Shown here: one piece after another, positions 7,101-63,100 of the stretch
How positions within the stretch are numbered: the first letter of the stretch is position 1
Layout: every line of letters starts with the position of its first letter
DNA from: Asterochloris sp. CNOR1
Lineage: Eukaryota > Chlorophyta > Trebouxiophyceae > Trebouxiales > Trebouxiaceae
Direction of reading: 5' to 3'
Length of the DNA: 64,000 nucleotides
Assembly: GCA_963969365.1 (NCBI GenBank)
Contig: OZ017747.1
Coordinates: 2,542,001 to 2,606,000 of the forward strand
Made by a program: the position numbers and the translations under genes
Notes under the pieces: model-generated
The model's input: only the letters and a program-made list of their open reading frames with translations
Database searches by the model: none
Told to the model about the DNA's origin: nothing

Positions 7101-10068
7101 TTAATACTGGCCCAGGGTGTGCTTCCACTTGACCTGCAGCTGGTGTGAGAACTTCGTGTAGCCACCTGAGTGCAGCGAGGCGGAGTACACATTGAAATCC
7201 TGCTTTTGCAGCGCGTCCAGGTACAGGCTGCAGGCCACTGAGGACAGCATCAGGCTCCTGGCGTCGCGAGGGATTGCAGCGCTCATTGCTCTTGCCTCAT
7301 CCAGGTGCCCCTGCAGGTGGCAAGAACAGTATACTAGCTGGTCGTGAGGCATGCAGCGGCATCATTCACTGCAGCCAGCACTGCCTGCCTGCTTGCAGAT
7401 CTGGCCAGGCACAGCTGAAAGTTGCGCCTGTAGCGCCTCCTTCAAGTCTGGGCTCACCTTGGCTACTGAAGCAACATCAAACACCACATTGCTGAGCGCT
7501 GCAGAGGCAACGCCAGCGTACAAATCCTCATCTTGCAGGTTGTACTGCTGTTTGAGAGCTGCTGGCAGGTAGCAGCGGCGCCTGCAGCCAGTTCAGCGCA
7601 GACTCAGTGCGCAGCTTGTGTGGGCAGGGTGAAGCCAGACTGCTGTGGCTGCTTGGCAGCATCGGGGGAGTGCAGGTGCTCAGAAGTGGAGGTCACCTTT
7701 GCGCAAGGTGGGCTGTGCCTCTCAGCAGCGTGGAGAGGCCAACTGCCTTGCCTAGGTGCGAGGCTGCGTGGTCTGCCTCAGCGCTGTTGACCTGTGCTGC
7801 CTCCAGCTGCAGCCATGGGGAACAGCATGACGTGGGCTGTAGTCTAGGGATGACATGGCCACAACATGTGCAGGCATGCATCTGGCTGCTGCCAAATGCA
7901 GGTTGCTGCCATTTGAAGCCAAACTTTGTTTCACATTGCAGCTTGCACCCTGCTGACACTCTGAGCCAGCATACACCTTTCAGTAGGAAGGCGCGCTATG
8001 CTGGCAAGTGCTGGTGGGACTGCAGGCAATGAATTGAACAACAGCAAGTGGGTCTGCCCTGCTGGCAGGCCTGCAGGGTAGGCAGCACACCTGCAGGTAG
8101 AGCAGCTGAGAGACTGTACCCTCAGCATATTCCTCCAGTTCCCTGACTGTCTGGATGTCCTGCTGCCGCATCATGTCGTCAGCTCGTGTCGAAATGATGC
8201 GCAGGAGACGGTACCGTGTGAGGGGGTGCAGGCTGTTGACCTGCATTAGGCCAACACCAAGTGCTCAAGCGGCCAATTCTGGTGTGGCGGTCAGCCAGGG
8301 GCCACTGTGCCTGCAGCAAATGCAGGCAGCAGATGCAGGCAGTGGTCATCGTATGTGGGACCTGCCGCAGCTATGAACCACAACTTCAAAGGCAACACAG
8401 GATCAACTTTAAAGTGCGACCGATCATTTGCGGTAAGTAGTGTTGGACAGCACTAGCATGGCAGCAACCCAGATGGCCACTTAACGCATATCAATGCAGG
8501 CGGCAAGTGCACAGCAGAATCCTGCCACAAGCTGCCACTGCTGCCCCTAGACAGCAAAACAAGTGGCACCGCATGGCAGACAGCAGCAGCAAGACGCAGA
8601 GCATGACAGACAGCGGCAGCAAGACAGGGCAGCTACGGGATGCCCAGACAAGTCATTCTCCTGAGACCCACTCAGCTGAGGTGAAGCTCAACATGGCAAT
8701 TTGCCTGCCACCAACAGCTTGCCTCTTGCTTGGGGCCTGCAGAGCATGCTGCTGTGCAGGGCCCAATCGAGCGTAAATATCACCTCCCCACTATTGGCCT
8801 GTGCTGGAGATTGGCCAGCAACTGACATGGGCAAGCCTGGCTGGGGAGTGCTTCTTTGGGTGCTGCCCTGGCCTGCCACCAGCCTGCTGTTAGACGGATC
8901 CCATCTGTGCTCTGAGATTTGGGAAGCTGCTACCCCAGATCTGCCTGGCAGAATGCGTGCACCGTGGAAGCTGCGAGCGCCCTTGACCACTCTACTATCA
9001 GACACCTACAGTGTTGCTTTGAGGGTCGGCAAGCTGCTATCCTGGGCCTGCCAGGCTGAAGGGGTGCTCTACTGGGTCTTGCACCAGCCACCAGAGTCTT
9101 GACCTGTCATGCAAAGGATCAGTCACACAGCAAGCTCATCAGCTGGGCACACCTGGCTCAGGGCGGACACCACTGGATGCTGCACCGGCCTGCGCTCGCC
9201 ATACATGCTATTGACAGCATCACGCCACCACTGCATGCGGACGGGGATGAGATTGCTCTCACGCACATGCTCGCCCACCAGCCCCGTCTCGATGTTGAAA
9301 GCGCGCAGCGCAAAGACGGCTGCCCGCAGCTCCTGCAGCAGTAGGACTGGAGTGTGTGGCAAGGCATTCTGGTCTTGCAGCGGGCAGCATGACCCACAGG
9401 TTGTGACAAACTGCCACACAGAGCCAATTGTGGGCTTTATGCAGCTCCTGCAGCAATGGGAATTGCTTGCACCACATCATCAACAACAGCAGCTGGCAGT
9501 GGAGCTGAAAGCCATGCGCTGCAGGAAGTAAGGTGCAGCTGTGCATGGGCTGCTTGGCCCACCGTACATGGCAGCGAGTGTGCCATGCAGCGTCAAAGAC
9601 AGCAGCTCCTGCAGCATGGCAATTGCCAGGCACCAGGCCGTCTATGTGTGGCAGCTGCCAGCAGGGGGCAGGGCCAGGCACTATGAAATTGATCAGTAGC
9701 CCTTTGCAGCTGCACCTTGGCTGCATTGAGCAGTGCATTGAGGCAGAATGCCTTGTATGGTATTGCCAGAGATTTTCCTGCTTACCTTGGGCAGCTGCAG
9801 CAGCCATACATAATTGTCGTAATCAAAGGCCCTGCAGAGCAGTCCATGTTGCAGGCTGATATGCAGTGTCTAGCACTTCGCCCCAGGAGGCACTGCACAA
9901 GCTGCTGATGTCGGTCCTGCCTCACTTGACTTGGTCCACACAATAGGAGAATGCAAACTTGAGATTGTGGTCTGCTGTGTTGGCCAAGCCGCGATGAAGG
10001 CAGAGGCTGGGCAGCTGGGGCAGATTCAGACGTTTTCCAGCTCTTGGAAGTGGTAGCAAGTGCAGCAT
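7101..10068 (-). CDS. NDUFAF6: NADH dehydrogenase (complex I) assembly factor 6, squalene/phytoene-synthase fold
   Basis: Seven exons (10068-9926, 9831-9786, 9332-9153, 8240-8091, 7791-7697, 7581-7458, 7310-7101) join in frame to about 315 residues, close to the human protein. Recognisable blocks in order are AFDYDNYVWLLQLPK, AAVFALRAFNIETGLVGE, RMQWWRDAVNSMYG, VRELEEYAEGTVSQLLYLQ, ADHAASHLGKAVGLSTLLRG, RRCYLPAAL, DVASVAK and the C-terminal DFNVYSASL. NDUFAF6 proteins have a phytoene-synthase-like fold but act in mitochondria in early assembly of the complex I Q/P module. The aspartate clusters of true prenyl-transferring enzymes are absent. The N-terminus from the ATG at 10068 is Arg/Leu-rich and lacks acidic residues, as expected for a mitochondrial presequence. 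The 912-bp intron 8241-9152 contains degenerate copies of the preceding exon's 3' edge. Confidence 0.88.
8820..9100. repeat. Degenerate intronic copies of an NDUFAF6 exon edge
   Basis: The plus-strand sequence at 9126-9200 (3' end of exon 3 plus its donor) recurs in weakened form at about 9026-9099 and 8826-8890, with a shorter trace at 8930-8995. Shared landmarks are GGCAAGCT, CTGGG..C.CC.GGCT, and GGGTCTTGCACC versus GGATGCTGCACC. All copies lie within the intron that follows the exon in the direction of transcription. Confidence 0.55.
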
Positions 10069-10299
10069 GCGGGCATCGGGTGCCCAGGCAACTTGTTGAA
10101 GTTTGACCACAGTCAGCGCACGACTTGCCACTGGCAATGCGGTACGAGGGACACTGTTGACCTGTCTTTCCACAACCAGATAGAAGCTTCGAAGCCTCGC
10201 CCTTCGCAGCCTTATTGGGGGGAGTGCACCTCCAGCCACATTCAGGCCAGCCACAGCGGCAGATCAACTCACTGCTGGCCCTAGGGACCTCGGGTAGCA
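10069..10299. promoter_or_regulatory. Shared divergent promoter region of NDUFAF6 and RCC2
   Basis: Only 231 bp separate the two start codons, which face away from each other, so both 5' UTRs and promoters must fit here. The NDUFAF6 frame stays open through most of it but lacks an upstream ATG. I see no TATA-like element. The assignment rests on position alone. Confidence 0.45.
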
Positions 10300-13200: not shown

Positions 13201-15246
13201 CATTGCTGTCCAGTCAGGTCTTTCTAAGCCTTCACTCGCAGGGTTGTTCCGAGCCCTCAAAATGTGCATGACCTGTCTGCTGTCACAGTACTGCCCATGG
13301 CACACCCTGCACAATGGGCGCTGTGGACTCCTGGAGTGCATGCAGGCGGCGGCCACTCATCCGGCCACGGTGAGTGCGCTGCACACTTGTGCCTGCACAC
13401 CACAGATGCTGAGCCCTTTTGGTCTGTGTGCAGGCAGCCTGCACACAGGCAGCCAGCTTCTGCATGCATGCAAGGGAGCTGGGCGGGCAGTCCTACTTAT
13501 GGGGAAAGGTCAAAGTGTCAGGTGGATTGCCATGGCACTTGCGCCTCTCATACAGTTACCTCAAAGCCAGTTAGTAAAAGTTATGGCGTATGCCTGCATG
13601 CCTATATGCTTCCCAAGTGAACAGGTCTACTATTCAAAGCACTGTGCCCAGCTGCTATCCTGATTGTTCTGCTGCAGGGGACAACATCATGTACCCTAAG
13701 CCGCTGATGGTGAGCGCTGGTGTCGGTGCTGCTTCCCTTGCTCGCTTGCTGTGCTAGCTGTGTGCCCATGACTGTCATGCTCCTGCTGCAGGACTTGAGC
13801 GGCTGGAAGGTTCATCACGCCTCAGCTGGGGCTACGCACTTTGCCGTTGCAGCAGACAACAGCTGCATCACCTGGTGAGCATTGCAACATGCATTGCAGT
13901 AGCGACTGCCCAGCTCCGCTCCTCGGTGCTAGGCTGGGGTGACAGGTGTGTGCAAACCTCTGCCCGCAAGTTTCAAATACGTGTCTGATGTGTGCATGTG
14001 AGCCTCTCCTTCATAGCTTTCTGTGCTGGCCTGTGTTGCGCATACAGCCCTCTGCCGCGCAGTCTCACATGAGCTTCTCAACGCCCACACTGCTTTATGC
14101 AAGGCTACTTGTGGATGCAAGGCGCTGCTGCTTGAGTGCCGTGTGCAGCAATGGCAAAGGGTGGTGTGCATGCATCCCTCTGCCTTTCTGTGTCTCTTGA
14201 TCGCAGGCCTGGCACAAGGGTTGCGTGCATCCAAGCCTCTCCCTTCCCACCTCAGAGGCCTGTGTCGGATCTGCATGAGCAAGTCGCTTTCTTCCACATT
14301 GCAGGGGGCATGCGCAGAATGGAGAGCTGGCCTATGGCAAGACTGGCAAAAAGTCATCTGCCAACCCAGACACGGTGAAGGCGCTGGAGGGTGCTGAGTG
14401 CTACCAGACGGCCTGCGGCATCGGGCACACTCTGTTCCTCATGAAAACAGGCTCCACAGTGGTGAGCAGATGGGCGTGTCAGTGCACCTATTGTCGCATG
14501 TTCAGGCGTTCATTTGGCAATGCAGCAATCGCCTGTCCACCTTGACATGAGGTTGTCAGGCATGCCCACTGAGAGGAAAGTGCATGTTTGCGTGTCCGGC
14601 AGCACTAATTTGACAGACCCAGAGCCCGCGCTTGTTGTGTTCCTCAGATCAGAAAGCTTGTAGCAGGAAAGGATGCGATTGGCGTCAATCTCACCTCACA
14701 TAAGTGTTGATTATGCAGGTTGAGAAGCTGGGAATATTTGAGCCTGAGGTGGCTGCCGAGGAGGCAGAGGCCGAGGAGGAAGAAGAGGAGGAGCCAGCTC
14801 CTATGGGTGCGAGCTGCTCCGGGGCAATTGTGTGTTGCTGTGCCGAAAGAAGCTGCTGCAGCCTGGAATATGCTGCTTCCCTGCTGCCTGTTGCGGAATG
14901 AAGCAGCAGGCTGGCATACTGCTGCAGCATATGTTCACATGAGTGGGAGGGTTTGAAGGCCAGGGCGCTAATTGACTGTGGTCCGCTGCCTGTGGATCTT
15001 GCTTGTCAACGAGAAAGTTCACATGAGAGGCTGGACACACTCTGATTATGGCACTCTGTTTGATGCAGAGAAGGCAAGGGCTGCCCCAAAGGGCAAAGGT
15101 GGGTCATGCTTTGAGCTCATCTGCAATGCAGTTGAAACTGCCAGATTGCGCTGAGGGAATGCTGCCCTGCAGGCAAAGCGGCTGCGGTAAAGCGGAAAGC
15201 AGCTGAGCCTGCAAGCAAGGCAAAACACACAAGAAGCAAAAAGTGA
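10300..15246 (+). CDS. RCC2: RCC2 (TD-60)-like protein, RCC1-repeat beta-propeller
   Basis: Sixteen exons join in frame to about 480 residues: 10300-10365, 10514-10564, 10759-10824, 10921-11016, 11314-11398, 11556-11675, 11972-12136, 12516-12653, 13059-13162, 13434-13521, 13678-13709, 13792-13874, 14305-14461, 14719-14806, 15069-15098 and 15173-15246. RCC1-type repeats are plain: AAGSAACHSIIGD, KGQLGHGDQLHRNVP, SGGKHHSVVVTQDGR, ACGAEFTMWVCSGKLY, ACGHQHTLAITDDG, NGGYGRLGHKVQQDE, DNIMYPKPLMDLSGW and ACGIGHTLFLMKTG. The last parts follow the plant RCC2 pattern. RCC2 is a nuclear/centromeric regulator of Rac1/RalA and mitosis in animals; algal function is inferred. The C-terminus has a run of acidic residues (14757-14795) and a Lys/Arg-rich end that could be a nuclear localisation signal. 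All 15 introns are GT-AG. A TGTAA motif at 15410, 164 nt after the stop, could be its poly(A) signal. Confidence 0.92.
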
Positions 15247-15296
15247 AGCCAGATCGTTGGAATTCATGAGTGACTTTTGTTCAACGCTAGCCAGGC

Positions 15297-18200
15297 TCAT
15301 GTTGCATCTGCCAGTGTGGCCAGCTCCAAGAAGCGCACATAGAATTGGATGGCCTGCAGGTAGCCCTTGACCTGCAGGGCAGACCACTAGCAGTTGGACG
15401 AAGTGCTGCTGTAACCAGCAGCGCAGCGTCCGCAGCCCACCTCAATGCGCTCATCAATGCCATGGACTCTGCTGATATCCTTCTGCTTCAGACTGGCTTT
15501 GAGTGCATTGAAGCGGTAGACATGCGTGCCGCCTGCTGTGATGTCAGGGTAGTGCCTGGAGTCTGTGGCCCCAACGAGCAGGAAAGGCACCACCACCAGA
15601 CCCTGCAACATCAAGTCTGCAGCTGCTCACTACTAAATCGTGGTAGTTGCCTTGTTGAATGCTGGGGACAGCACCCATTCTGCGAGCCACTGCACAGACA
15701 ACTGCAGGCTGGTTGGGGTCATTGCACATTCCGGCGCTACTGACCTGCTCGTCCTGCATAGTTTCCTGGAGAGCACGCTCCACTAATTTAAATCTGCGGG
15801 AAGTACAGCTTGACACAGCTGATGCAGCTGTGGCAGGCTCATCGCTGGAAGGTCTCAGTTTGGCATGCTCCATGTCTGCGCCCAAACGCTGCTGCAGGTA
15901 CTGGTAGGCATACTCGCCTGGGATATCTGCAGCATGAGGCACTCACTCTGTGCATCACTGTTGAGAGCTATGGCTAGATGCATCTGTGATTCATGTCATG
16001 GCAGGCTGTTCAGCCTTAGCCTTGGGCAACTGCCCATGTCCCCAAAGATGCCCTTGGCCTGGTGCTGTCCTGGAGGGCGCAACTGTGGATGCTCTGGCAG
16101 GCATGTCATGCCAGCATTTGCAGACACGCAGCCTCTGTGATGGACACCAACACACCGCTCTGGCAGGCGGGCAGAGGGCTGCATCAGGAGCGCGCTGCAC
16201 ACTCACGGCCAGGGAGAAGGCGGAAGTTGAAGCCAACCTTGCCGCTGTTGGGGAGCACATTGTCTGCAGTGTGGGCATGCAGGTAGGTCACGGCGGCTGT
16301 GGTGCGCACCAGCGCAGCGGTGTCAGGACCTTTCCTTGCAAGGACATGAGCCAGCAAGGCGGGCCTGCAGACAAGTGGCAGCGTCTGGCACCTTCAGGAG
16401 CAGGGGTGGGTAGGGCAGCCGCCAGGGTAAGCCTGCATGCTCACCAGCGCTGTGCCAGACCCAGCAGCCACCGCAGCACAGGTATGGAGCAAGTTGGGGT
16501 CACTGCGCGAATGAATGCTGGCATGGGATCCGTCATCATGATTTGTGGCGGCTGCGACTCCACAGCATGCATGAGCTTGGCCAGACGGGCAGGCACCTGC
16601 ATGCATGCACTGCCGTTGTCAGGCCTAGAGCCTAGGGCATCCATGCAGGCTGCTGGCAGTTGTACAGTGGCCTGGCTGCTTGCCAGGAGTGCCTGGCTGC
16701 ACAAACACGAGTCTGCTGATGATCATGAAGTCCTGCAGATGAGTGCCCCACCATCTGTTCAGTGCTTGCGGTGATGTGGTTTTCTTCAGAGAGCTACAGG
16801 GGATCATGAGAGTGCACAACGTACCTGCAAGCCCTTCCCTTTTTTGTCGATAGGGGGCATGCTGGAGTGGCCCCCTCTCCCAGCCATCTCCACAGTCACG
16901 CTTTCATAGCCCTGCAGCGCAGTCAAAAGGCGGGCGCTGTGGTCATCTAATTGAGTGGCGGGGCTCAGTGAGAGGGTCCTGAGGATGTGATGGCTGAGCA
17001 GCTGGCCAGCGCAGCACCCTGCACCCCCCCCCTCTGTGATGATCTGTGGCATAGGGCAGGAGACACAGCATGCAAGATGTCCTGGGTACACTGCAGGGAA
17101 TCAGCTCCACACTGGCTGGGGCTCTTCACGGACAGCAAGGTCGTTGCGCCCGCACAACAAGCCACAGTCGTGCGTTTTTGCAGCTGGGCTGGCAGCAACA
17201 GAAACACAAAAGGGGAAGTCGCCACGAAGTTGGCCTGCAGATGGGGAGCCAGGCTAGCCACCCGTCCGCCCCTGTCAGCCGCCCCCCGCCAGCGCAGTGG
17301 CCACAGGCTGACCATTTGGTCAGATGTATGTGTGCAGCCGCCTTGGCAGTGGTGACTGCATCCACAGCAGACCTACACAGGACCGGGGCCTAGGGCCTGG
17401 CCTTAAACTTCTCAGATGTTCTCATTAGTGCCATGTTGGCATTTGGGAGTGAGGGCCCTTACTGTTCACAGATACACGCCAGCCAGCACGCAAGCAGCAT
17501 GTAAATCCCTGCACCTGCTTTCACAGCCGTTGCCGCCAGCGCATTGCAGGCAGTTGTGCATGACGGCAGAGTGTCAACAGCCAAGCACGTGCTAGTGTTC
17601 AGACAGCATGCAAGCCCCTGTAATCACCTTCTCAGCTGTTCCCACTAGCGCAATCTTGGCATTTGTGAGTGGAGACAGGCCGTCGATAGCAACCAGGCCT
17701 CCCTCATCCAGCAGGATGTCCAGGCGCACCCCACGCGACTTTAAGAGCTGTGAAATCTTGGCAGCGCCTTGATCGCCGCCCACCTCCTCATCGTGCCCAA
17801 AGGCCAGGTGTACTGTGCGTTCTGGCTGAAACCTGCAGCCGGGGCATGCAGGCTCGGGCTCTGTGTTCAACAAAGGATGGTTGCACTAGGAGGGCAGCTC
17901 CTGCTTGAATCAGGTCTGTGTCAAGCCAGGGCATGCAGCTCACTTAGAGCTGATGGAGTCAGGGGGTCCCTGCAATGGCCTGCTCTAGACAACAGCTACA
18001 TGCTGCACAGGCTTGCCAGCAGCAGGAGGTTGCATGCTGACAAGCAGATGTTGCTGGTTGTGGTCAAGAGCACCTACCCAGCTTTGCGCCACCCCTGCAG
18101 GCAGAGGTGCGCACTGACATCTCTGGGTGCAGCAGGGGTTGGGCAGCCATCATGCGCAGCTGCCACCAGAGAGACCAGCCTGCCCTGCATCATCAGCACA

Positions 18201-19294: not shown

Positions 19295-19373
19295 TGATCT
19301 GAGATGCCCCAATCAAATCGACTAAAAGGACTATGCATTTGACTGCTTTGACTCAGGAATGCAGGCTGTTCAA

Positions 19374-20404: not shown

Positions 20405-20544
20405 GAGTTCGGAGCCCAGCTCAGTCCTGTACTGCAACGGCTGTCTCGCCTGCAGACAGATGTCGCGGGAGAGCCTGCAGCTCGTCAGGCAACCTTAAGC
20501 CCCCTTTGAAAGCCACTTTGACTCCATAACGGCAGCACATCGAT
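20405..20544. promoter_or_regulatory. Short divergent promoter region (DUF6817-like gene / dioxygenase)
   Basis: The two start codons lie 140 bp apart on opposite strands, so one compact region must drive both. No specific element was recognised. Confidence 0.4.
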
Positions 20545-23500
20545 ATGGTGGCAGCAAGTCAGCCTGATCATGTCAGGTGAGCGTCATGAGACCCCGAAGG
20601 CAGGCAAATTGTCCTAAGATGTCCCCTCACCCCTGCCATGTGCTCTGCAGAATCTCGGTGCCTGATAAGATCAGACCAGTGCCAAAGCCTGCTGCCTGGA
20701 TCGCAGCAGACATGCAGAAGGCTAGGAGCGAATGGGAGGTTTGCCTGTCCGAGGCTGACGTTGCTGAGGTTGAGGCTGCCCTGGCAGCTGCCATGGCCAC
20801 TGGGAAGGCCATCAATGTGAGCCATACTGCTGTGTAGCTGCAAAGCCATTGAGGAAGCAACATGCATGGATGCTGTGCATGTCGGCCCTTGTGGCGGCCC
20901 TCTCTGCTGCTTTAGCAGGATGTGGGAGCTCTGCCACACATGACTGACTTGACATGGCCTGGCGCAGTTCATCTCTGTGCCAGAACAACTAGAGTGTGCC
21001 TCTTCCTTCCAGCAGAACTTGCTGCAAGCTGGCAAAGATGGATCTGCACGCCTGACCGGCCTATGAGACTCCTCTCCCTGCAGGACCTGACTCAGCATGA
21101 CTTCCCTCTGCCCACGCTGGGGCCCAGGCTGGTCGAGATCCACGAGGAGGTGGTGCATGGGCGTGGCTTCCAGCTCATCAAGGGCCTGCCAGTACAGCGC
21201 TACAGCCCCCAAGAGGTGATGACAATCTACTGGTGAGGCACCCCCCCAATGTGTCTTTGCTTTGGCTGCGCTCTTGACTGCAGGACAGCAAGCAGGGGAT
21301 TAAGAGGTGTGGGTAAAAGCATGTTTCTGCTCGGCTCAGCCAGTACAGGTGTCCCTGCTTGCCATCCGGCTGCCTTAGCTGCTGTTTTAGCTGGAGGCCT
21401 AGTCATGTGCTGGTGTTCTGGGCGGTGCATCGGCCTCATGCACAGCATGCTCACCCTTCCACTGCTGGCATGCGCAGTGACCTGCCTGCAAGCCCTTGGG
21501 TGAGCTGCCCATTGATGAGCCGCCCCTGTGCAGCATGTGCTACATGGCTTGTCCTGTACAGGTGTCTGGGCACCTGGTTTGGCAAGGCGCAGCCCCAGAA
21601 CAAGAAGGCCCACCTGATTGGGCACGTCAGGGTGCGCCTGAGTGACCAAGCTGCACCTGCAAGCCTTGTACATAGCATTGCAATGCATCCATTTGTGCTT
21701 GCCTTGCAGGACGTCCACTCTGGGGACGGCTTGAAGGACCCCGTCAACAGGATTTACTCGTGAGACTAGATGCAGCTGCATGTGCATATAACAGTTACAC
21801 CCTGCTCCCGCCTGGACATGTCTCCCTGAGGCAACACTAAGCTGGTGCTCTGCAGCACCAATGGAGCTGAGCCCTGGCATGTTGACGATGCTGATGTTGT
21901 GGGTGAGCTGTCTTTCCAGCAACTGTGCCCAGTGGCAGTGTCAGCAAAGATGCAGTTGTGGTGTGCGCAAGCCACATGCTTCAAGCCAAGACCAGCTTCT
22001 CTGGAGAACTTCTCTGCCTTTCTCTGCCTGCATGACAGACTGGCCGCGCTTCCAAATTAGCAGCCGGGCCTGTAGGGCTGCTGGACCTGCATCAGGGACA
22101 TGCTGCATGATTGCACGGCCGCAGTGTCTGAGCTCTGGCTGGACAGATGCAGCCCTGCTCATCACATGGCTGCACTACCCACAAGCAGCCCAGCCTGCTG
22201 GGCTGCAGGGCCTGTAAACTGGCAAGCACAGCAGATGTCAGCCAGTGTAGAGATATGCTGGCCTGAGTACATCTCATGGCTCTGTAGGGCTGCTCTGCCT
22301 GCGCACGGCCAGTCAGGGAGGCAAGAGTTGTTGGGCCAGCTCTGCCACTATCCACAATCGCATGTTGGATGACAACCCAGAGCTGCTAAGGCTGCTGTAT
22401 GAGCCATCCTACCTGGACAGGAAGAATGAGGTTCCAGAGGGCAAGCTGCCATGGTTTGTGCTGCCGGTGTTCAACGAGCATCAGGTAGGCTCTCTGGCTT
22501 TCCAGTGCCTGGGTTGGTGGCAAGTATTGCGGGACCTCAGCTGGTTGCTCATATGCTTGGAGTGCCATTCTTGCAGCATCCTTGCTAAAGTCTTTGCTGT
22601 CAGCAGTTGGGCTGCTGATGGCAAGTGCAGCAAGAATTACCTCTGCTGCACATGTTGCAGTGTGCAGCAGACAGTCAGCCTGAAAGGCAGTGCGTCAGCC
22701 TGGAAGGGTGTCATGCCCTCAACAGGCGGCAGGCTGCCCTTCTTCTTGGCTGCCATCACTGCGCCGATCCCATTAGCTTCACCACTGTGCCTGCAGGGCC
22801 ATGTGTGCTGCTTCTACGCAGCGACCTACGTCAAGCTGTGTCAGCGCCATGCTCAGGTGCCCCGCCTTACTGACGAGCAGGAGGCTGCCTTTGCTGAGTT
22901 TGAGCGTCTGGCCAACAGTGATGAGTGTTGTATGCACTACAAGCTGGAGGTGGGGGACATCCAGCTGCTGAACAACCACACTGTGGTGAGCTGGGCCAGC
23001 CGAATACTGTACCTGCCGGCAGCCCAGAGCAGTGCAGTCACTTCAGGCTGTATGCAGGGCAAATTCAAGCTGCCACTCACATGGTGGTGGGCCTGGCCTG
23101 CCAGTGTCTGCTGCCGAAGTGCTGGCTTGCGCTGCCTGCAGCATGCTTGCATGCACAGGTGACGTGCTGCCCTCACCGCATTGCTGTGTGCCTGCAGGTG
23201 CACAACAGATCAGCGTTCACTGACTTTGAGGTGCGGAACTTGCCCTCAGGCTGCTGTCTGTGATTGGCTGAGGTTGGGCTTGATGTGCCAAGGACAAGGC
23301 TGTTGCTCCAGGAGGAAGACCGCAAACGGCACCTGCTCAGGATGTGGCTGGCACCCCAGGATGGCTGGGAGCTGCCAGAGCAGTTTGCCGAGAGGTATCA
23401 CACGGTCACCAAGGGTGAGCTTCAACCTCCAAGAGTATCTTGCATGCAAGATTGCCAGCTTGGCGGAGCCTTGGTGACCTGCAGGTGACCGTGGAGGGAT

Positions 23501-23912: not shown

Positions 23913-26900
23913 TCACTGTGCTCGTTGCTGCCTCTGAACTAGGCGGCGTGCTCTTGTTTGCCTGGTGCGAGCTGCAGGATAATAATCTGCCACTGCCTGG
24001 TCAAGGATGGGGTACAGCTGCTCCACGTCGATCTGTACATTAACATTGCGTTTCAAAAAGAATTCCTCACACTTCTCAATCCAATCTGGATCGCCTGTAA
24101 TGGCTGGCAGCCTTGCAGGGCAAGTCTTGTTGACGTACACCTGCACGAAGAAATGGCACAGAACATGACACGAGCAAACGTGCCAGCACCGAAGCAGCAG
24201 GATGTTCATCTTGAGATGGTCAGAGCGTAGCCACATATGCCCCCATGACAATAATGAGGGGCCAGCATGCATGTGCACACAGCCAAGGACGCCCACGGCG
24301 CCTTGTTGCAGAGTCACCAGGCAGCCCAGGCAGTAGACAGTTGCTAAGCAAGGGCTGTACCTGCTCCTTTTCTGCGTCTGTGAGCTTCAAGAAAGGGTTC
24401 TCGCCCTCTCCAAATGGAATGTCCTCTATTCTGGGAATCTGAAAGCTTATTCTGCCTGGGTCTGTGATGTTGATGGAATAAAATTTGACCTAAGGGTACA
24501 GGCACGGTGGTCAGCTTGCTGATGGGTGATGTGCATGAGTGTGTGCCTCATCTTGGAATCAGCACTTGCCAAAGCCACATCTCAACACATGTGTGACATG
24601 CACAAGCTGATCGCTGTGGAGCTCGGTACAAGATCTTCAAGCACAGCCCAGCAGATGGCGCAGCCAGCATCGCCAGCAGCCACGTCGGCGATGCTGCATC
24701 AGTCACAGGCACACATAAAAGTCGGACGACTTGAGTGCCAAGCGCACTGTCTGCTGGGCAATGGCACAGCCCTGGCTCCAGGTCCATTGTGTTGGGCAGA
24801 TTCCTGTCGATCCCGCAGCTGCAGCCCCCTGCCATGCGGTGCCTGTTAAGCACTCACTGTGTTGGGCAGGTCACGGACAAGCTCCTGTGGCCACACATAG
24901 CTCTTGGGGTTGCGCTGCATATCTGGGATGATCTGGATGGCTGTCGCGTTTTCAGGCAGAAACACCATATTGGCCATGTCGGCCCCATGCACCCAGATGA
25001 CGGCGGACAGGTTGTTGAATGCCTGCACGGGCAGCAAGAGGGCTGTGTCAGCGGTCGGCAGCATGTTTGTCTGCAGCATGCGCCAGCTGCGCCATGCCCG
25101 CTGCGCCGTGCACGGTGCGCTGCTGAAATGTGCTCAGCTGCATGTCTGCTGCAGGCCTCAGATGTGCAGCATACAGCAGCCTGTCTCAGACCGCATGAGA
25201 GGCCGCAGGCATGACTGCGGCATGGGTGCATGGCCGCATCGTCACACCATGGTGATGGGGCTGGGCACCACCTGGTAGGGCACTGCTGGACTTTGCCCTG
25301 GGCCTGGGCCACAGGCTTGTGAATGCAGAGTGGCAGAGACATGCCAGGAAGGGGACTCTGCCCTGGGCCTGCGCCTGCAGATCCTTGCAACCATCAACGA
25401 GCTTGGTCGGGCAGGCAGCTGGAGCCTGGCAGGCGCAGGCGTCCAACCTTTGACCAGACCTGCAGATTCATGCTGAGCAGCCCCTCATGACTGCCCTTGT
25501 GCAGGAGACAGCACCAGCAGCCAGGGAGTGCTGTTCCTTTTCAACCTCTGCATGCCCTGACCACAATTCCCCCTCTGGTGAAAAGCAGCACCACACCCCG
25601 AAGACTGCTGACTGACCCTGCCCCATGCCGCATAGAGGTGCCGCTTGCTGCAGCCCTGGCCCTGACAAGGCTCTGGTACGATGGCAGGGAGTGCCCACCT
25701 TGGCCTGCGCTTGCAGGTTCATGCCGACCGGAGACATTGGCTCCACAATGGCGTCCGGGTAGCGCTTGGCCAGCTTGCGCAGCACCTCAGGCAGGTTGGT
25801 GATGTGGCGAGGCTGCTCCTTGCCACGGTCGCGCACCCCTATGGTGAAGCGGGAAGCCGACGTGTCCTTTTGGGGAGTGAAACCCCCAAAGGTGCAGTCA
25901 GCCAGGCGCTGCTGCCAGGAGCGCATCATCTCTGGTGAGGGGCCCTCCCTGCCGCGCCGCTGGTCCCTGCAGGGGCAGGCAGCTGTTGGGCGTGGCGGTC
26001 TGGGCACGCCTGGAAGCTGCCCACCTGCATCCTGTGCAGCCATCAGTTGGCCACTGCTGAATTCTAGCCTGTGAAGTGCTGCTGCCACGAAGACGTCATC
26101 TCTACTGAGGGAGCCTTCCTGCCTTGCTGCTCACTTGTTCGAGCAGGTGGCTTGCGAGTGTCAGGTGCAGGGCATTCATGGCGTCGTGCGAGGCTCTGCA
26201 GCCCGCCTGCAGCCCGTGCAGCACGTGAACCAAGCCATTGAGGTGGTTCTACGGTGGGGTGTTCTAGGCCTGTTGTCGGGGACGCATCACCTCAGACAGG
26301 GGCCCCCCCCAGCTGTTCCGTAACAGCAGCAATGTCAGTCCAGCAAAAGCTTGCAGTTCCCGTGCACCTACATCCTTGCAGATGTGAAGGGTTCAAGCCT
26401 CAGGCTGGTGCTTGTAACCCAGCAGCTTGTATCTGGCAGGAAGGGTCATTTGTGGTAAAAGCACGGAATACAAGCAATTGCGGCAGCACACTGACCCACC
26501 GTGCAGCCAACCCGTGTCTCAGCATGAGTTGCCCAACAACAACAGCACCTCAGATGGCAGCACTGCCCCCGGCAGCTCTGCAGGTGGTGGGCATCGATGC
26601 TGTCAGGTGCGCCGGGCAAGCCAGCTCTGCCATGCATGCGCACACAGCACAACACCCTCACCAGGGTTGGCAGTGAATGGGGTCGCTGCGGCACTGAGGG
26701 CCCCACCCCGTGAGCAGCCTGTCAAACAGGACCAGCTGGTTGGCTGAGCTGTTCCCCGGGCTGTCGCTGGACACCAGGGGGTTGGGCCCCGCCAGGCAGC
26801 GGGGCGCCTCAAACGCCTGAGCCTCTGGGAGGTCACGATTGTGCAGGAAGTGGGTGTTGTTGCCGCGGTCGGTGTACAAGATGAGGCGCAGATCAGAGCC

Positions 26901-41611: not shown

Positions 41612-41889
41612 GTTGAGGTGTCATTTGCACGGCCCTGGCGATTTCAGGGCCATCAGGTTGCTGCTCTAGGACCGTGCTGCTCATGCACTTGCCAACGTAT
41701 CACATAGGCTCCAGCTCCTGCATGCAGATCTGACCTGCGTGCTACTGTTAAACAAGTGCGAGCAAGCTGCCTGCAGTGCAGCTGCACCACATCAACCAAA
41801 CTCACATCGTTAAACTCTAGAGTGAAACGCATGCAGGAAGGCCGCGCGGCCCACTGCTGTCTAGGACCTGACTCTATGAGCCTTTCTGC
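41612..41889. promoter_or_regulatory. Divergent promoter region of ELL and VPS13
   Basis: The starts lie 278 bp apart and face away. A second ATG on the minus strand at 41684, out of frame with the ELL model, might be an upstream ORF start. No motif was recognised. Confidence 0.35.
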
Positions 41890-44800
41890 ATGCTAGAGGG
41901 GTACATCAGTGAATACCTGGCCTCCTATGTTGGACAGTTCCTGGAGGTCAAGAGGGAGCAGCTGAAGTTCAGTCTCTGTGAGTGGCTATACAACAGGCAT
42001 ACATCAGCAGAAGGAAGAGGCAGACAATCAATGCTCTTGCATGGTTGCAGATGGCAGGACAGACATCGTGCTGCACAATGTCAGAATCAAAGTCGAGGCA
42101 TTTGACGCCCTCGACCTGCCATTTGACATCAAGGAGGGCACCATTGGCCGCCTCGCTGTGCAGGCAAGTACTGGGATCTGCTCTGGTAACCCACTGGTCC
42201 ACAGTCATATGCCAAGCTTCGGCACATGTGGAGAGGCGTGTCAGACACAACATGCACAAGACAAGCACAGGATGGCTGAGGCCTGCATCATACCCTACTT
42301 GCCGCACAGTATCCTGGGCCATCACTTGTGCTGTGCACCTGCTGGCATGCTGGCTTAGCAGCTGGCCCCATCATCTCTGCCCCTGCAGTTCCCCTGGGGC
42401 GTCCCCTTTGCCGTCACTCCCCTGATTGTGGAGGTGGAAGATGTCCACCTGCTGGCAGCCCCGCGGCCTGAGGAGCACTGGTCTGGCGAGCACGCTGCCA
42501 AGCGCGCTGCAGCGATCAAACAGGCCGCCCTGGCATCCGGGCCTCTGGGACCGGCCCCTGCCCCCAGCCGCGAGCGCAGGTCCACAGCGCCCTCCTTCAG
42601 CCGCCGCCTGCTTGTCTACGCGCTGCAGTGGCTGGCCAACAGGCTGGAGCTGACAATGCGCAACGTGGTGCTCATCTTCCAGGTGGGCATCAGCAGAGAT
42701 AATAGCTGCGTGCCTGTTTGTCGATGTCCTGCAGTGGTTGACTGGCTGTGCGCACCATTGGTGCTCATCCTCTGGTGAGCGTCAGCAGGAGCTTGGGCGA
42801 CAGTACCTGAGCTGCAGTGGCTGCCCAGCAGGCTGGAGCTCACGGTGAGCGATGTAGTATTTATCTGGCAGTTGGGCACTGCCATCACGTTGCAGCTTTG
42901 GTTATCCTGTCACAGCAGATAGTGCACTGGCTGACCGATCAGCTCGACCTCACCATGAGCAATGAGGTGCTCATCTTCAGGAAAGCACTGGGACTGTGGC
43001 GCAGCAGCTCTGATGACTGACCGGGGGCTCGCTGTCAGCCCATGGTCCTGCCTGTCTAAACTACGTGATCTGCAGCTGGGGCCCCTTGATGTTGTCAGGA
43101 GGGCTGGCTGCCTCTTGCACTCAGCATCAATCCAAGTTCACTCTTGCGGCTGCTGCCGTGGTTTTGGCTGGACATCTGCCACTGAAGTGCTGAAGGGCTC
43201 TGAGTTCCAGGCTGACCGTCCAGGCTTGCCTGCAGGAGGATTCTGCATCACCCCAGGCAGTGGGCAGCCACCTCGGCCTGCAGCTGCAGCACGTGATCGC
43301 CCAGCGTGGACGCAAGCAGAGGCAGCAGCCACCTCCCTCAAGCAATACTGCCAAATCTGTGGTGAGCTCTGCCAGACTGTTGTGACTTCTTGCACACGCT
43401 CTGGCCAGCCAGTATGGCTGCTTGGGCAGCATGTCATGCATGCCCAAAACAAGCACACAGAGCTCCACCTTAGTGCCTCCTTCCCCTCTGACTTTGCAGG
43501 CTGCTCATGTGTCGCGTGACCTGGCTATTGCTGGCCTGTCAGCATTTTGGCAGCCTGCCGACAGCAGATTGCCTGGAGATCAGTGGCTGACTGAGCACGA
43601 GCACCACCACTTGGTGCCAGACGAGAGCTGGAATGTCCTGCAACCACTGGACTGCACTCTGGAGCTGCGCCTGAATCTGCCTGGGCAGCAGCCCAATGGG
43701 GCACACAGCAGCCTGCATGTTGGGGCGACAGTGCCGGTCATGTCAGTGCACCTGCAGCAATCACAGCTTGCTGACATCACAAGGCAAGCAGTCTGGGACG
43801 TCTGCAGTGATGATCATTCCATGTGCTGTGATGTGCTGCGCCATCTCTCTGCTTGGCTGCATAATACAAGCACCCTCTGCTGTCTGCTGTGGTTGCTGCT
43901 TGTGATCTGTTGAACTGCACTCTTGTATGGCCTCGGCCTCCTCAAGGAGACCCACTTGGGCTATGCAGGCTGCTGGATGAGGCTGCAGTGTGGCGCCTTC
44001 GGCAGCAGCATGCTGTTTGCAGGCCAGCTGAGTGGAGTTGCCAGGACTTCGATGCAAGGTTGGGCCTACACTTCTTGTGCCTGCCCATGAGTCAACATGC
44101 ATGAATGCTGTGTATAGCCTGGCTAAAACCTTCTGCGCAGGATGTAGAGCAATCTGTTTCATTTTGGTGTATTCTGCAGGTTTGCTCCTGTTGGCTCTGC
44201 AGGTCAGCTTGGCGATATGCAGGCCGGGCCGTGCTGGAGCAGCTGGCCTTGCCGCCGGACAAGTGGAGTACTGCGCGGCATGTGCGGTGGCAGGCACTTT
44301 CAGCACAGTACTGCAAGCTCCAGGAGGTGGTGCTGCATTGTGCAGCTTGCTGAGTACCCACAGAGCCTCACACTTGACACTTGACACATGAATGACTGCG
44401 TGCCAAATTCTCATTGCTCTCCAGTGCATTGCAGGTCTCATCAACTGCGTGCTGTGCAGGCTGCAGATGGCCAGGAAGCCTTGCGTGTGATGGAAGAAAG
44501 GCTGTCACTGGCTCAAGTGAGAGCTCTCAGAGCTGGTGTCCTGTCCCGCATGCAAGTTCAGAGGCAGGTCAGCAGGGCCCCTGCTCAGGCAGAGACCCCA
44601 CAGTCCCAGACAGCCTACATTGGAGCGCTACCTGGATCTGAGCAGCTGAATGGACAGGCATCCCCTGCTGCAGAGCCTGTAGCAAGGTCAGTCGTCAACA
44701 GCATTGCATTCGCGCAGCTGCTTGACGTGTATTCAGCGGCAGCTTTGCTGGAGCGCTGCGTCATGCTAGCTCATGCATGTGCCACATGCAATGGTTGCAG

Positions 44801-54100: not shown

Positions 54101-57100
54101 TCTTCCAGTTATACTGCAGCGCGTTAGGGCAAACTCACTCTCTCCGCGCAATGGCTGCAGGCGGCACAGGTTGCCATCTCCTTTGTTTGGAGCAACGCTG
54201 ACTTTTCACACCGCTGCAGTAATTGCAGGCTGGCATGAATGATCCCCTGTCAGAAGCTATTGCCCGCCTATTGGCAGAGCTCCTCACCTGTGTGGACACT
54301 GGCTGCAGGGGTGGCAGTACATCATCCCCTGTCTGAAGCAGTGCCTTGACGCTGTGCAAGAGGGGTACTCCCACCCCTTCCGCGACAGCAGCGCCTGGGC
54401 CAGAGTGCTTGAGCTTGACCAGCAGCACCAGGCAGCCCCAGCCATCGTGCTGCAAGCTGCTACCGACTGCATGGTGGATGCCAAAGTGCATGGCCTCAAG
54501 CTGGAGGCGGTGGCAGACTCTGTGGCAGGCAAGCTGCTTACATTGGTGCTGCTGATTGGATGATTGATGTCCAGGGATGTCTGGCTGGAGGCTGCAGCAA
54601 TATGCAAAAAGTGCTCAGAAACAGTAGCCATGGCACATAGCTGCTGCTCAGTGGAAGATTGACGCAAGGCTGCATGGCCTCTGCTGGAGGCTGTGACAGA
54701 CAATGTGGCGGTTGAGCTCTCTGCACGTAAGGCCACAGCGTGTTCCAAGTGCAACAGCTCCAGTTGCACAGGCAGCACGGTGGAATCGAGCATGGAAATC
54801 GTGCCTGGACAGCACGACAGCACTCTGAAGGTTATCGCTGTTTCTCGAGGTCCTTGCCGGGGTTTGCCTGCAGGGGAGACAGACATGGCAGCCTGCCTGC
54901 TGCTGAACACCACACACGTCCCCTGTGCCCTTGCCTGATATCTGCTGCTGTGTGCTTGCAGGGGAGACAGACAGGGCGGCCTGCCTGCTGGTGAGCACCA
55001 TGGGCTCCCTGCACGGGTGCAGGCACAAGTCCGGTGCGCTGGAGCACACCCTGGCGGTGCCACACTTGAGCATCAGCGTGGCCATGGTGGATGTGGACAC
55101 CAGCCTGGGCATTGGGAGCAGCCGCCTGGAGGCCGGCCCCCTGCTGACGGCTGTGGGCTTTGAGGCAAAGTTGCAGCCGCACGAAGGGGAGGCTGCTGCA
55201 GGTCAGCAGCAGCACCAAGGTGCTGCACTCATCTGCCAGCATGTCCTGCACTTGGCGTGCACCTGCAGCAGCCATTGTGAGGCCTGACTTTCTGCTGAGG
55301 GCAGTGGACTCCAGGCACATGGCTGCAGCTGCCAGAAGACAAGGCGCTGACACTTGCATGAATGCCCGACCTGTGCTCACATTGCATTCGCATCAGCCAG
55401 TGGAAGCAGTGAGCCCTTGGTGATGGCAGCGGATTTTGAAGCTGTGCTGCAGCCATGACGAGGCTGCTCTGGGTCAGTGGCAGCTGGCCTTTGCAGGTCA
55501 GGGCGTCACCAGCAAGCCTTCTGGTCACACAGCACGGGAAGCAAGTGCCTGGCGGCTGCTCATTGAGGCACAGGGGCAGCTGTTTAACAGTGATTCTGGC
55601 AAAATCAGCAGCAGCAACGCTGGGCTTGGGGCGGCGTATGTGGCTGTACACCTGTGGTCCCTCCTGGAGGACAGGCTGCTGCCGCACAACGCTGCAGTTG
55701 GTGCACTTCTATGTCACGGCAGCAACTCCCTGCAGGTCAAGCATCATTGCCTGCATGCCTTACCATACCCTCCCCAGGTCCAGCACTGCTGCAGGTGCTG
55801 ACACCCTGGCATTTGGTGCTGAGCTTCATGCCACCCTGGGCCTCAGGCTGGAGCATGTCTCTGTGTGGGCCTCCTCTCGACGCCTCTGCCTGCTGGCCGC
55901 CCTGCACACAGCTGCCCAGCGGGTGCAGGCCAGGCTGGGGCAGCAGCAAAGGATGCTGTTGCCCCGGCGGCAAATGGTGGCACAGCAGGTGAGCTTTGTG
56001 TGGGTCCCTCTGGACTGAGAGTGCACAAGAGGCTGCTGCCGCGACCTGCTGTTGCACTGCAGATGGGGTTGTTGTCAAACTTGTACACTCCTCTGGCTGG
56101 GCACAAGTGCCATCAGCTAAGTTTTGTTGAGGCCGACAAGCTTGCGGGTGACGCTTCAATTTTCTGGAGCGCCTCAGCAGCTGCTCCGCTGCAGGTGGCG
56201 CCCTCAACAGCACTAGCACCTGCCAAGCTGGTGGTCCAAGCCTCTCTTGGCAAGCTGGCCCTGCTCATCAGCAATGACCGACATGACGAGAATCTGCCCA
56301 TCCTGGAAGCAGCAATCTGCAATCTGCTGGCAGAGGGCCAGATGCAGAGCGACATGACACAGCTCAGCAGCCTGGCCCACCTGCAGCTGCTTGTGGACAT
56401 CCACAACAGCAGTAAGGGCATGTGGGAGCCCCTGGTGGAGCCTTGGCAGTGCTCTGTGGGCTTTAGCAAGCCTGGCACCAGGTGCGCCACCCCAGAAGCA
56501 GGTGTTGTTTGAGTCGAGTTGACAACAACATCAATGTTGAGATAAGCATGCTGCATACTGTGCAAACCTGAAGGGGTTGCTGGCTGGCTTTGCGTGTCCC
56601 GTGCAAGGTGAGCTCTCAGCACAATTCACAACGCTCGGTAACACCTGCTTCAATCTGTGTGCAGCCCTTGATGGCGCAACATACACAAACATGAGAAATG
56701 AGGCTGCTGCGGCCTATGCACATGCAGCTCTCAATGTGTTGTGGTTCATGCAGCTGGAGGCAGTGTGCAGTCAGCATGGATGCTGAGTCAGTGCTGGAGC
56801 TGACTGGCAGCCTGGCAGCAATCCAGGCCTGCCAAGCTGCCCAGCATGTAGTGGCAGACGTTGTGCAGGTCAGTGCAGGTTGTGTATTAGAATTTTGCAT
56901 GTGTCTTCTGTAGTCAGAGTTAGGTTTTCAACTGGGCGTGTTGGCTTCTGTCCAGTCTGCAGGCTGCATAATAGCCAGCAGGACGGCAGAGCTGCTTGGT
57001 GCATCCAGTTATTTGATGGCTCATTTGCCTGTCCAAAGGACGACCAGGTAAACGGAGGAAGCTGCTTAATTGTAAAAGATTGGGAGGCCACAGAAGCCAC

Positions 57101-60100
57101 TTCCCACCCTGCAGGCTGCAGAGCAGCCAGAGGAGGTGGCAGAGCTGCTGCTGGCCTCCAACGACCGCCATGCAGAGGCAGCTCACCGCAGCATGAGCAC
57201 CTTCTGGCTGCACAACCTGACGGGGGAGGCCGTGGAGTTTTGGGCCAGCACGCAGCCGCCGCCAGGGGTCAAGTGGCTGCCTGAGACACGCGGCTGGGGG
57301 CGACTTGCGCTACCGGTCGCCCTGACAGCGGAGGCCGACCCGCAAGGTGGGTCTGCTGTCTGCTGTTTGAGACACACAGGGCTGTGGCAACATGGCGAGA
57401 CACACATGGCTGCGGCGACAATGGCTGACCTCTTGATCTTGCCAAAACTCTGCATGCCCTGACTGTTGAGTCATGGGCTAATGGGCGGGCTCGTGCTGCC
57501 AGCTGCACTGATTACAGAAGCTGCCCCCCTGAGTGGGCCCGCAATGCAGACACTGCCTTGGACACACGACTGTGAGCGGCGTGCTCCAGTAGCCACACTC
57601 ATCACACGAGGATGACAGGCAGGTACGACAAGTCAGTATCTGGCTGTCTGAAGCAAGGCCAGGGTTGCCACTCTGCAGGGGCTGATGGCTTCATGCGACC
57701 CACGCCAGTCCATGACTAATACTGCCACCAGCTGCTGAGGTGGTGCTGCACTGCCTGAAGCAAGGTGTCTCTGCCCGACCTTCACATTTGGTGCATCCTA
57801 GCTAGGCGCAAACTTGCCCCAGCAGCTGAAGGCTGGGGCCAAAGATGCCAGGATGAGCAATGCCTTCTGCAGGGCCTGCTGGCCTTGTGCGTCCCGGCCA
57901 GTCCCGAGCGCTGCCCCAGCTGCTGGGCTACAGTCCCCAGCGCCAGGGCCGCCACGTCGGGGACCCTGGGGGTGCCGCAGGCGCCGCCTGGCAGCCCCCT
58001 GCTGCACCTGCATGGCAGATGGGCGGGCTCGCAGTGCAGGGCCCCCAGAGGGTGCAGCGTGCCACAGACACAAAGCTGTATGTGCGCATCAAGGGGCAGC
58101 AGACAAGCCTTGGCCCCTGGGACGTGGACACCATGGGTGCTGGGTCCCGCTTGGTGAGACTTTGCAGGTGGCATGTGCAGACTTGGAGGCGATGAGGGGC
58201 CTCTGCCTGCAGTAGACGCCGCTCCGCGCAGGGTGATGAGGCAATAGGTAGATGCAGCTGCCAGAGTCTGGCCTGACACCCACCTTCAGTGCGTGTGCCA
58301 TGGAGCTACCACCACGCGCTGGCAGATGTCCTTGCCATATAGCAGACACCAAATGGGTCCATACAGCGTTCCTCCCCTTGTTGAGTGTGCTGCACAATTG
58401 CCGGGGAATCAGCAGATCGCCCTGTCTGGGCAGCCTGTGCCCTCAGTAGCTGCACTGATGACCTCACTGCAGCGAGGGACAGCCCGTCTATCTGTGCAGC
58501 GAGCCTGCTCCCACACAACTTTGCTGGCCAGCTGCCTCCAACGCAGCTGCACATGGAGATGGAGCACCAACCCCATGTCGCCCCTGCTGCAGATCAACGT
58601 CTCCAAATTTGTGGAGGGGACAACCGCTCATCTGTCCGGGCAGCTGCATTTTGAGGTGGAGCACCACCCTCTAGGGGATGTGAGCATCACACTCCACTCC
58701 GCCTGCCAGCTGGTCAACACCACAGCCCTGGTGCTGCACGCCAATCTGTGGGATGAGCAGGATACACGCTTCAATCAGGTGGGCACCATGTTTCATGCAG
58801 CTGCTGCCAATGGCCATGATGGAAGCAGCAGGCTTGAGCCTCACTGCAGAAGCTGGGAGCTCCACTGCAGGCCACCCAGATGCACGCTTTAGCCACCTGC
58901 ACTGCAAAGCGTCTGGGGCCACACAGGGCTTGATGCAGCAGCTGTTGACTTGCATGACGGTCACCCAGGCAGCTCTGAGACATGCAGTTTCAAGCTGCTG
59001 GGGCTGGGTTTGTGGAAAGCTGGTTCCAGTCTGGTCTGTCTGATTGCAGGTGCTCCAGCCAGGCGCAAGGGTCTGGCTGCCTGTCCTTTGCCTGCAGTCC
59101 TGCACACTCTCCCTTCAGCCTCAAGGTGAGGTGGCCACCCCAGGCCTTTTGGCAGCCCTGAGTGCAGGTGAGTCCACATGTATCGAGGCCCACAGGCGCC
59201 TCCAAGCTTTGATGCCCTGTGGCTTGGCCTGACCGCCTGAAACTGATCCATCACCCCCTGCTGGCTGCAGTTGACTTTGGTCGCCACCACAGGGCCTGTG
59301 GTGGAGTGCGCCTGAAGGGCCTGCTGCGGCAGGGCAGCATGCAGGGGTCCGCTGACATGACTGTCACGTGCGACCCCTCTGAGGGCGACGAGGACTCGCC
59401 TGTCCACCTCTGCCTGGGAGTCATGCCTGCAGATGCCAGCGGCGGTGAGCATAGATGTTCACACTGAGAGCAGTCGCATAGCAGCCACTAGCAGCGGCAG
59501 TGCCTGCTGTGCAACTGCTCTCCTCAAAGGTGGTTCTTCATGTTCACCAATCAGAGCAGCTTTGTGTCGTGTTCACCAATCAGAGCATCTCCATGTCTCT
59601 CTGCAGCTCACCAGCTTGTGGTGGCGGCTCCAGTGGCAGTGCACAATGCACTGCCAGTCACTGTCAGGCTGGAGGTTATGGGGCAGCGAAGCGACTTCAT
59701 AACTCCCGCTGCTCTGCTGGAGAGCGCAGATGTGTCTTCCCTGGCCAGGCAGGAGTGGTGCTGGCTGCGGCCAGAGGGCCTGGCAGGCATCAGGATCCAC
59801 ATCGCTGGCTACAGGCCTGTGCAGCTTGATCTGGATGCAGTGCATGCCAGGTGCGGACCTCTTGTGGCTGAGCGCATGCCTCTGCAGTAAAGCTAGCACT
59901 GTTAGTCAACGGGGCAGTCCGAGCTGGTCTCTCAAGAGGCTGCATGCGTGCTGTTGCAGCGAGGCCGGCACGGATCAAGGGGCGGCGTCATACGCTGCCA
60001 CGCTGACGCCAGAGGGAGAGGGGCAGGCAGAGGCATCTATATTCCTCAAGCGCCGCCAGCCCCAGCGCATGCAGGCCCTCACCTTCCAGCTGACCTGCGC

Positions 60101-63100: not shown

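Follow-up and report, generated by a model that had tools for sequence, protein, structure and literature searches.

To our knowledge, the lengthening of introns without transposons is poorly documented. Vaughn and Bennetzen are said to have worked on small tandem duplications in rice in 2014, and an earlier study of intragenic duplications reportedly dealt with larger duplications that create introns. Introners occur in algae too. Ma, Lan & Niu (2016, PMC4974935) describe the gain of an intron by tandem duplication over an intron-exon boundary in the potato RdRp gene PGSC0003DMG402000361, which also carries an intronic tandem duplication of 83 bp. The formation of small tandem duplications by repair of breaks with overhangs is established (Schimmel et al. 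2021, PMC8355091). Introns are also proposed, and in part demonstrated, to arise when an exonic AGGT segment is duplicated (PMC3443670, PMC2891723). Here we describe exon-edge echoes, which are decayed local copies of an exon border inside the adjoining intron, in the green alga Asterochloris sp. CNOR1. They were examined in a window of 64,000 nucleotides (assembly GCA_963969365.1, contig OZ017747.1, positions 2,542,001 to 2,606,000 of the forward strand) and in 200 kb out of four other contigs. We consider it quite likely that their best explanation is junction-crossing tandem duplication of approximately 40 to 250 bp, with the surplus copy decaying in the intron.

Like the duplications of the intragenic study, which could reportedly include exon-intron borders, the echoes would derive from internal duplications of genes; those duplications are reportedly larger and create introns, whereas here partial exon edges decay within introns. 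As in potato RdRp, a short tandem duplication over an existing junction would have copied the splice signals. The potato gene is one recent case with a new intron, whereas many old, decayed cases are found here and are read as growth of existing introns. The break-repair duplications are likewise direct, short-range and able to add to genome expansion. Those, however, are new mutations, mostly described at <100 bp (PMC8355091), whereas here lags peak at 90 to 120 bp, the copies are old and we infer the mechanism of birth. In AGGT-type gain (2010, PMC2891723), a within-gene tandem duplication also supplies intron sequence, but there the new intron is the duplicated coding segment itself and has the same length, whereas here the lag seldom equals the intron length. 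Introners resemble the echoes in that intron sequence is derived from repeats; with introners (Gozashti et al. 2022, PMC9860276) one element lies at many unrelated sites, whereas each echo matches its own neighbour. An earlier note on this window had known of no description of such intron growth for algae. The potato gene is one published junction-crossing case (PMC4974935). No study treating decayed junction-crossing duplications genome-wide as a contributor to intron length was found in the open-access literature, which omits most subscription journals. The echoes would give direct traces of intron growth through local duplication.

The assembly comprises 56.4 Mb in 21 contigs, the window belonging to contig 2, and the 264-kb sample contains no N letters. 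A gene finder self-trained on the 264 kb predicted the gene models from sequence alone and returned 77 genes and 564 introns, with splice consensuses that converged on CAG/GTGAGC and CTGCAG/G (slash at the junction). After exclusion of introns shorter than 60 nt or with a flanking exon shorter than 30 nt, 384 of the 564 introns were aligned to their own flanking exons. At scores of ≥80, matches were found in 49 of 768 comparisons (24 with the upstream and 25 with the downstream exon), compared with a mean of 1.65 over 20 permutations with unrelated exons, from which any pair less than 5 kb apart was excluded, and 2 of 768 for the own exons in antisense. At ≥90, the own exons gave 34 matches and unrelated exons 0.25 per permutation. 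Own-edge matches were thus far more common than matches to unrelated exons, as the earlier note had expected. Under a lax threshold of ≥70, the counts were 58 for own exons, 8.35 for unrelated exons and 16 for own exons in antisense, and a small share of these weak matches therefore stems from inverted repeats or from local composition. Because the antisense count exceeded the unrelated one at this level, thresholds of 80 and up were used.

Among the 41 matches at ≥85, 18 lay within 3 nt of a splice junction, where 1.0 was expected under even placement in the exon. Echoes at ≥80 were present in 46 of the 384 introns, about one in eight, and all five blocks (the window and the four other contigs) were represented. 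The copies were local, direct, decayed and often junction-crossing, as had been noted for five genes, and they extended well beyond those genes. The median intron length was 402.5 nt with an echo and 227.5 nt for all 384 introns, long introns also being larger targets. Matches per intron were 26/35 at lengths of ≥500 nt, 50/119 at 300 to 500 nt, 21/125 at 200 to 300 nt, 39/172 at 100 to 200 nt and 12/116 below 100 nt.

The excess of local repeats was also seen when the 264 kb were aligned to themselves within a fixed lag range, short tandem repeats having been masked beforehand. At lags of 30 to 530, 159 pairs scored ≥90, whereas the control bands of 530 to 1030, 1500 to 2000, 3000 to 3500 and 5000 to 5500 gave 5, 3, 1 and 1 pairs, respectively; an earlier scoring had given 141 local pairs versus 4 to 16 at far lags. 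These 159 pairs form 119 clusters, 24 of which hold more than one pair, and the matches are thus partly non-independent. The lags were mostly 40 to 250 bp with a peak at 90 to 120 bp (53 pairs at ≥80 within that 30-bp band), and the excess was down to background by approximately 500 bp. The repeats were therefore short-range, with an excess only below lags of approximately 500, and direct (49 sense versus 2 antisense own-exon matches). Chance or composition as their source was ruled out by the far-lag bands, the unrelated exons and the antisense control.

With blastn at E ≤ 1e-8, 14 pairs were obtained in the 264 kb, of which 12 were direct with a lag of ≤198 bp, one was direct and 1.0 kb apart, and one was a local inverted repeat; dispersed repeat pairs at this threshold within the 264 kb numbered zero. 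Three echo regions compared with the whole 56-Mb genome gave self-matches only at E ≤ 0.001, in a search that skipped very common words. Both results agree with the proposal that the echoes are distinct from introners. As a separate observation, there was no sign of recent transposon copies in this gene-rich 264-kb sample.

The 159 pairs were then sorted by the position of their two copies: an intron copy with a junction-spanning copy (IJ), intron with exon (EI), intron-intron (II), junction-junction (JJ), intergenic (GG) and exon-junction (EJ). There were 59 IJ, 25 EI, 41 II, 12 JJ, 11 GG and 6 EJ pairs, 2 exon-exon pairs and 3 others. When the annotation was rolled 500 times, 24.6 ± 4.7 IJ pairs were expected and no roll reached the observed 59; the other expectations were 28.3 EI, 39.6 II, 6.9 JJ and 14.9 exon-exon pairs. 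Exon-exon pairs were depleted (2 versus 14.9), and selection appears to have eliminated duplications within exons. Outside the exons, the repeats occurred at similar density, with 41 II pairs in approximately 132 kb of intron and 11 GG pairs in approximately 41 kb of intergenic DNA, both approximately 0.3 per kb. Apart from selection, their occurrence was thus independent of gene structure. In the junction's own intron, echoes at ≥85 gave 42 donor rows and 31 acceptor rows, a single pair being able to yield several rows.

We simulated random tandem duplications, discarded those that broke exons, allowed the free copies to decay and then searched for pairs as in the real sequence; the lag distribution of these simulations was drawn from the same detected pairs. 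The simulated share of IJ and EI pairs together was 45 to 53% with uniform ages and 56 to 86% with old ages, and the observed share was 53%. If the 18 JJ and EJ pairs are included, the observed junction share is 64%, above the uniform-age runs. With uniform ages the individual shares were 0.42 to 0.45 for IJ, 0.32 to 0.40 for II and 0.13 to 0.17 for GG, and the observed shares were 0.37, 0.26 and 0.07, respectively. Because random duplication with purifying selection on exons gives approximately the observed number of junction pairs, splice-site targeting is not needed as a cause, though it may still have contributed. Geometry, together with selection holding one of the two copies, largely accounts for the apparent preference for exon edges. 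The earlier note had proposed a mode of intron growth across splice sites. The junction-crossing local copies support this proposal, but a tie to splice sites is not supported, given the similar density of II and GG pairs.

The echoes behave as noncoding relics, given near-equal mismatch at the three codon positions and frame-breaking gaps. In the 101 EI and IJ pairs, exon and echo differed at codon positions 1, 2 and 3 by 0.185, 0.195 and 0.258, and the mismatch was 0.212 on the exon side and 0.244 on the intron side. Of the 47 pairs with gaps on the exon side, 40 had a summed gap length that broke the reading frame, and 13 of 1,082 inherited codons in the EI and IJ pairs were stops. The copies were therefore not evolving as coding sequence, contrary to an origin by whole-exon duplication. 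The same data speak against the suggestion of the earlier note that the copies could create alternative exons. In some echoes the splice sites are kept, the gene finder calls exons within echoes (for example 42818-42844 and 56963-57047), and position 3 is somewhat more mutated than positions 1 and 2, although constraint on the exon alone predicts the same. Since positions 1 and 2 are nearly as mutated as position 3 and both frame-breaking gaps and stops occur, we give almost no credence to the view that exon duplication produced the echoes as alternative exons or as exons lost only recently.

Among the readable same-intron rows, 25 of 39 donor copies retained GT and 20 of 31 acceptor copies retained AG, together 45 of 70 (64%). 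The median identity per base was 0.77 for IJ and 0.80 for EI pairs, and two bases at such rates would be retained in 59 to 65% of cases; the copied sites thus show no mark of selection. The echoes have the look of relics, neither protected nor specially destroyed. The ratio of transitions to transversions in the copies was approximately 1.1, with no single dominant change. An echo pair can serve as a small internal clock that needs no outgroup, the exon copy being constrained and the intron copy free, and it separates change in the noncoding copy (approximately 19% at positions 1 and 2) from the extra at third positions (approximately 7 points). Changes at exon codon positions 1 and 2 likewise form a directional, near-neutral spectrum without an outgroup; the exon-to-echo rates per site were 0.117 for G>A, 0.107 for T>C, 0.102 for A>G and 0.082 for C>T.

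Taken as a sequence of events, short direct duplications of approximately 40 to 250 bp would arise in tandem throughout the genome, in introns, intergenic DNA and exon borders alike. They would probably be born when staggered breaks or paired nicks are repaired, as described in plants and mammals. A duplication entirely within an exon would mostly be purged; one over a donor or acceptor would be tolerated if splicing stays at the site that preserves the coding sequence. The surplus copy, comprising the exon edge, the splice site and some intron, would be left inside the intron and decay as noncoding DNA, and the intron would lengthen by the size of the duplication. With its exon copy under selection, an echo pair may remain recognisable longer than an intron-intron pair, and this longer survival makes the echoes seem a class apart. 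The sample itself shows the local repeats and their excess, the crossing of junctions, the noncoding decay and the lack of dispersed relatives; birth by tandem duplication, this order of steps and the growth of introns are what we infer from the pairs.

Several observations weigh against this explanation. At ≥80, the repeats cover 10.3% of intron bases versus 3.7% of intergenic DNA, the intron value being the higher because echoes add to introns. Echo frequency was uneven among the blocks (10 of 106 introns in the window, and 5/82, 4/56, 11/64 and 16/76 in the others), and EI pairs were not enriched over the annotation rolls (25 versus 28.3). No single simulated setting of age and indels fits the scores, the ratio of length to lag and the class shares together; the oldest settings give 11 to 13% II pairs versus 26% observed, and none produces the 12 JJ pairs. 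We take part of the JJ pairs to be gene-model errors, and small exons predicted from sequence within echoes blur both the JJ (12) and EJ (6) classes. The median ratio of alignment length to lag was 0.44, and the length reached ≥0.8 of the lag in only 32 of 159 pairs. Past the alignment, flank identity at the same lag was 0.340 versus 0.355 in the control (123 pairs). Simulated tandem duplications give 0.362 to 0.375, so this test has little power, and the observed value is lower still.

The last two results are those expected if a nearby stretch of 40 to 110 bp, often an exon edge, had been copied during break repair and inserted 60 to 200 bp away as filler DNA, never head to tail. Such templated copying would likewise place direct copies close by, with no regard to splice sites. 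By contrast, the strongest pairs include several nearly full-length tandems:
C5 31349: lag 92, length 92
C5 34353: lag 91, length 81
C5 35348: lag 90, length 79
C3 43088: lag 106, length 112
In addition, when shifts were allowed in the flank test, 40% of pairs scored >70 versus 23% of controls, so the spacer retains residual similarity. Indel-rich old tandems in the simulation had length/lag quartiles of 0.34, 0.48 and 0.68, similar to the observed 0.26, 0.44 and 0.69. We chose tandem birth followed by many indels over spaced insertion, and consider filler copying unlikely.

Tandem duplication could also create an intron outright, as in the Rogers model, in which an exonic AGGT segment is duplicated and the intron is the duplicated exon piece. 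The introns do resemble their flanking exons, as this model requires. The lag should then equal the intron length, but it came within 5 nt in 3 of 167 junction rows and within 15 nt in 13 of 167. Moreover, the junction was aligned to a site of the same kind (GT-GT or AG-AG) in 45 of the 70 readable same-intron rows, and 59 pairs contain intron-side sequence. As a general account of the echoes this model is very improbable, and a few cases of its type may be present in this sample.

The tandem duplications do not appear to have formed at a constant rate. Numbers cannot rise with age in one genome, and a steady process should therefore leave many near-identical pairs. Among the neutral pairs (II and GG, n = 52), only 2 scored ≥250, whereas 22.5 would be expected at steady state, or 20.4 if indels were more frequent. 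Only 9 of the 159 pairs reached an identity of ≥90%, each ≤40 nt long, and the fitted age spectrum places most births at 0.2 to 0.3 changes per site per copy. In a weaker test, 1 pair was seen above 93% identity versus 4 to 9 expected. For copies that were short and spaced from the start the score test would carry less weight, leaving only this weaker identity count. A duplication pulse or a slowdown in the past is likely, with few pairs formed recently. We put forward only tentatively, as somewhat doubtful, the wider view that the introns of this lineage grew through a past pulse of 40- to 250-bp tandem duplications that has since almost ceased, so that a good part of the intron DNA would be decayed local copies and the echoes datable fossils. 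If true, such a pulse would be a transposon-free source of long introns in green algae.

Three other causes of the missing young copies were rejected. Repeat-induced point mutation would not fit, since C-to-T changes do not dominate and all four transitions lie at 0.08 to 0.12 per site. Rate variation among sites with a gamma shape of 0.5 or 0.3 still predicts 18.3 or 15.0 neutral pairs at ≥250 versus the 2 observed. By reasoning, copies born already diverged through crossing-over between divergent haplotypes would be near-identical at positions 1 and 2, yet these differ by 19%. Two young-looking duplications were found separately. Window positions 39951-40005 hold a tandem duplication with a 28-bp unit in 2 copies with 96% matches, one of few of its kind, and L018:3332-3410 (C5 block 13332-13410) is a perfect 39-bp tandem duplication, the sole fully identical pair among the 159.

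In the window, alignment scores confirmed junction-edge copies in all five genes named in the earlier note, namely those for NDUFAF6, an M20 peptidase, GT61 and VPS13 and a "35-kb gene", which we took to be the gene at 35394-37825. Positions are those of the window.

In the NDUFAF6 gene, both edge matches score close to the noise limit and are weaker than those in the other named genes:
8828-8876/9144-9193, minus strand: 3' edge and donor of exon 9153-9332 echoed in the 912-nt intron, score 88
9029-9089/9130-9190, minus strand: the same exon edge with donor 9152, score 85
8908-8960/9015-9067, minus strand: intron-intron pair beside the edge copies, lag 107, score 111
The echoes had been said to begin at 7458. 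No pair at ≥72 begins near that position, and the NDUFAF6 pairs begin at 8828. The same 912-nt intron shows, at 8799-9238, a degenerate self-similarity with a lag of approximately 106 bp over 337 bases, which resembles a decayed minisatellite.

In the M20 peptidase gene, the copies lie in the downstream intron, and the echo region matches only itself genome-wide:
17408-17451/17628-17671, minus strand: 3' edge and donor of exon 17628-17832, score 143
17495-17581/17604-17690, minus strand: 3' edge and donor of exon 17628-17832, score 116

The GT61 echoes sit in gene g9. In the echo at 27054-27086, CAG is now AAG, with AG retained, and the following codon-length stretch is TAG:
26943-26975/27054-27086, minus strand: acceptor and 5' edge of exon 26662-26960, echo 111 bp upstream, 30 of 33 identical, score 132
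25908-25961/26078-26131, minus strand: 5' part of exon 25699-25966 echoed, score 127

Two further genes have one pair each:
36090-36141/36194-36244, plus strand, gene 35394-37825: acceptor and 5' edge of exon 36203-36640, echo 104 bp upstream, score 120
40504-40545/40627-40669, minus strand, gene 37912-41832: 3' edge and donor of exon 40632-40966, GT kept in the echo, score 108

In VPS13, the edge of exon 42389-42682 has three degenerate copies downstream, in a region that matches only itself genome-wide, and the same holds for the region 54855..55000:
42622-42689/42811-42878, plus strand: 3' edge and donor of exon 42389-42682, copy in the downstream intron, score 175
42624-42683/42923-42981, plus strand: copy in the downstream intron, score 138
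42650-42696/42742-42788, plus strand: copy in the downstream intron, score 103
54855-54912/54943-55000, plus strand: acceptor and 5' edge of exon 54962-55201, echo 88 bp upstream, 84% identity over 58 nt, score 191
56952-56996/57104-57149, plus strand: acceptor and 5' edge of exon 57115-57346, score 112
57672-57711/57866-57904, plus strand: acceptor and 5' edge of exon 57873-58153, echo 194 bp upstream, AG kept, score 104

Where an echo has kept its splice sites, a gene finder can be led to predict a small exon that is not real. The predicted exon 42818-42844, inside a VPS13 copy, is probably false, and so probably is 56963-57047, called at the VPS13 echo 56952-56996, where two stop codons fall in the reading frame of exon 57115-57346. 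Among the short exons predicted, some must be errors, in a few cases owing to their position inside echoes.

Pfam supports SQS_PSY in the predicted protein of the NDUFAF6 gene, Peptidase_M20 and Glyco_transf_61, the last of these scanned in gene g12 (29080-30886) instead of g9. VPS13_N gave 55.8 bits on a 176-aa piece of VPS13, under the cut-off of 80, the model being much longer than the piece. The name NDUFAF6 is carried by some homologues found with the predicted protein, for which the best named match has 57% identity over 74% of the query and the top match 53% over 94%; among the named matches, Trebouxia is the nearest to this alga. Finally, at L014:2670-2823 (C4 block 22670-22823) there is an imperfect inverted repeat of approximately 156 bp that is 78% identical to its own reverse complement.

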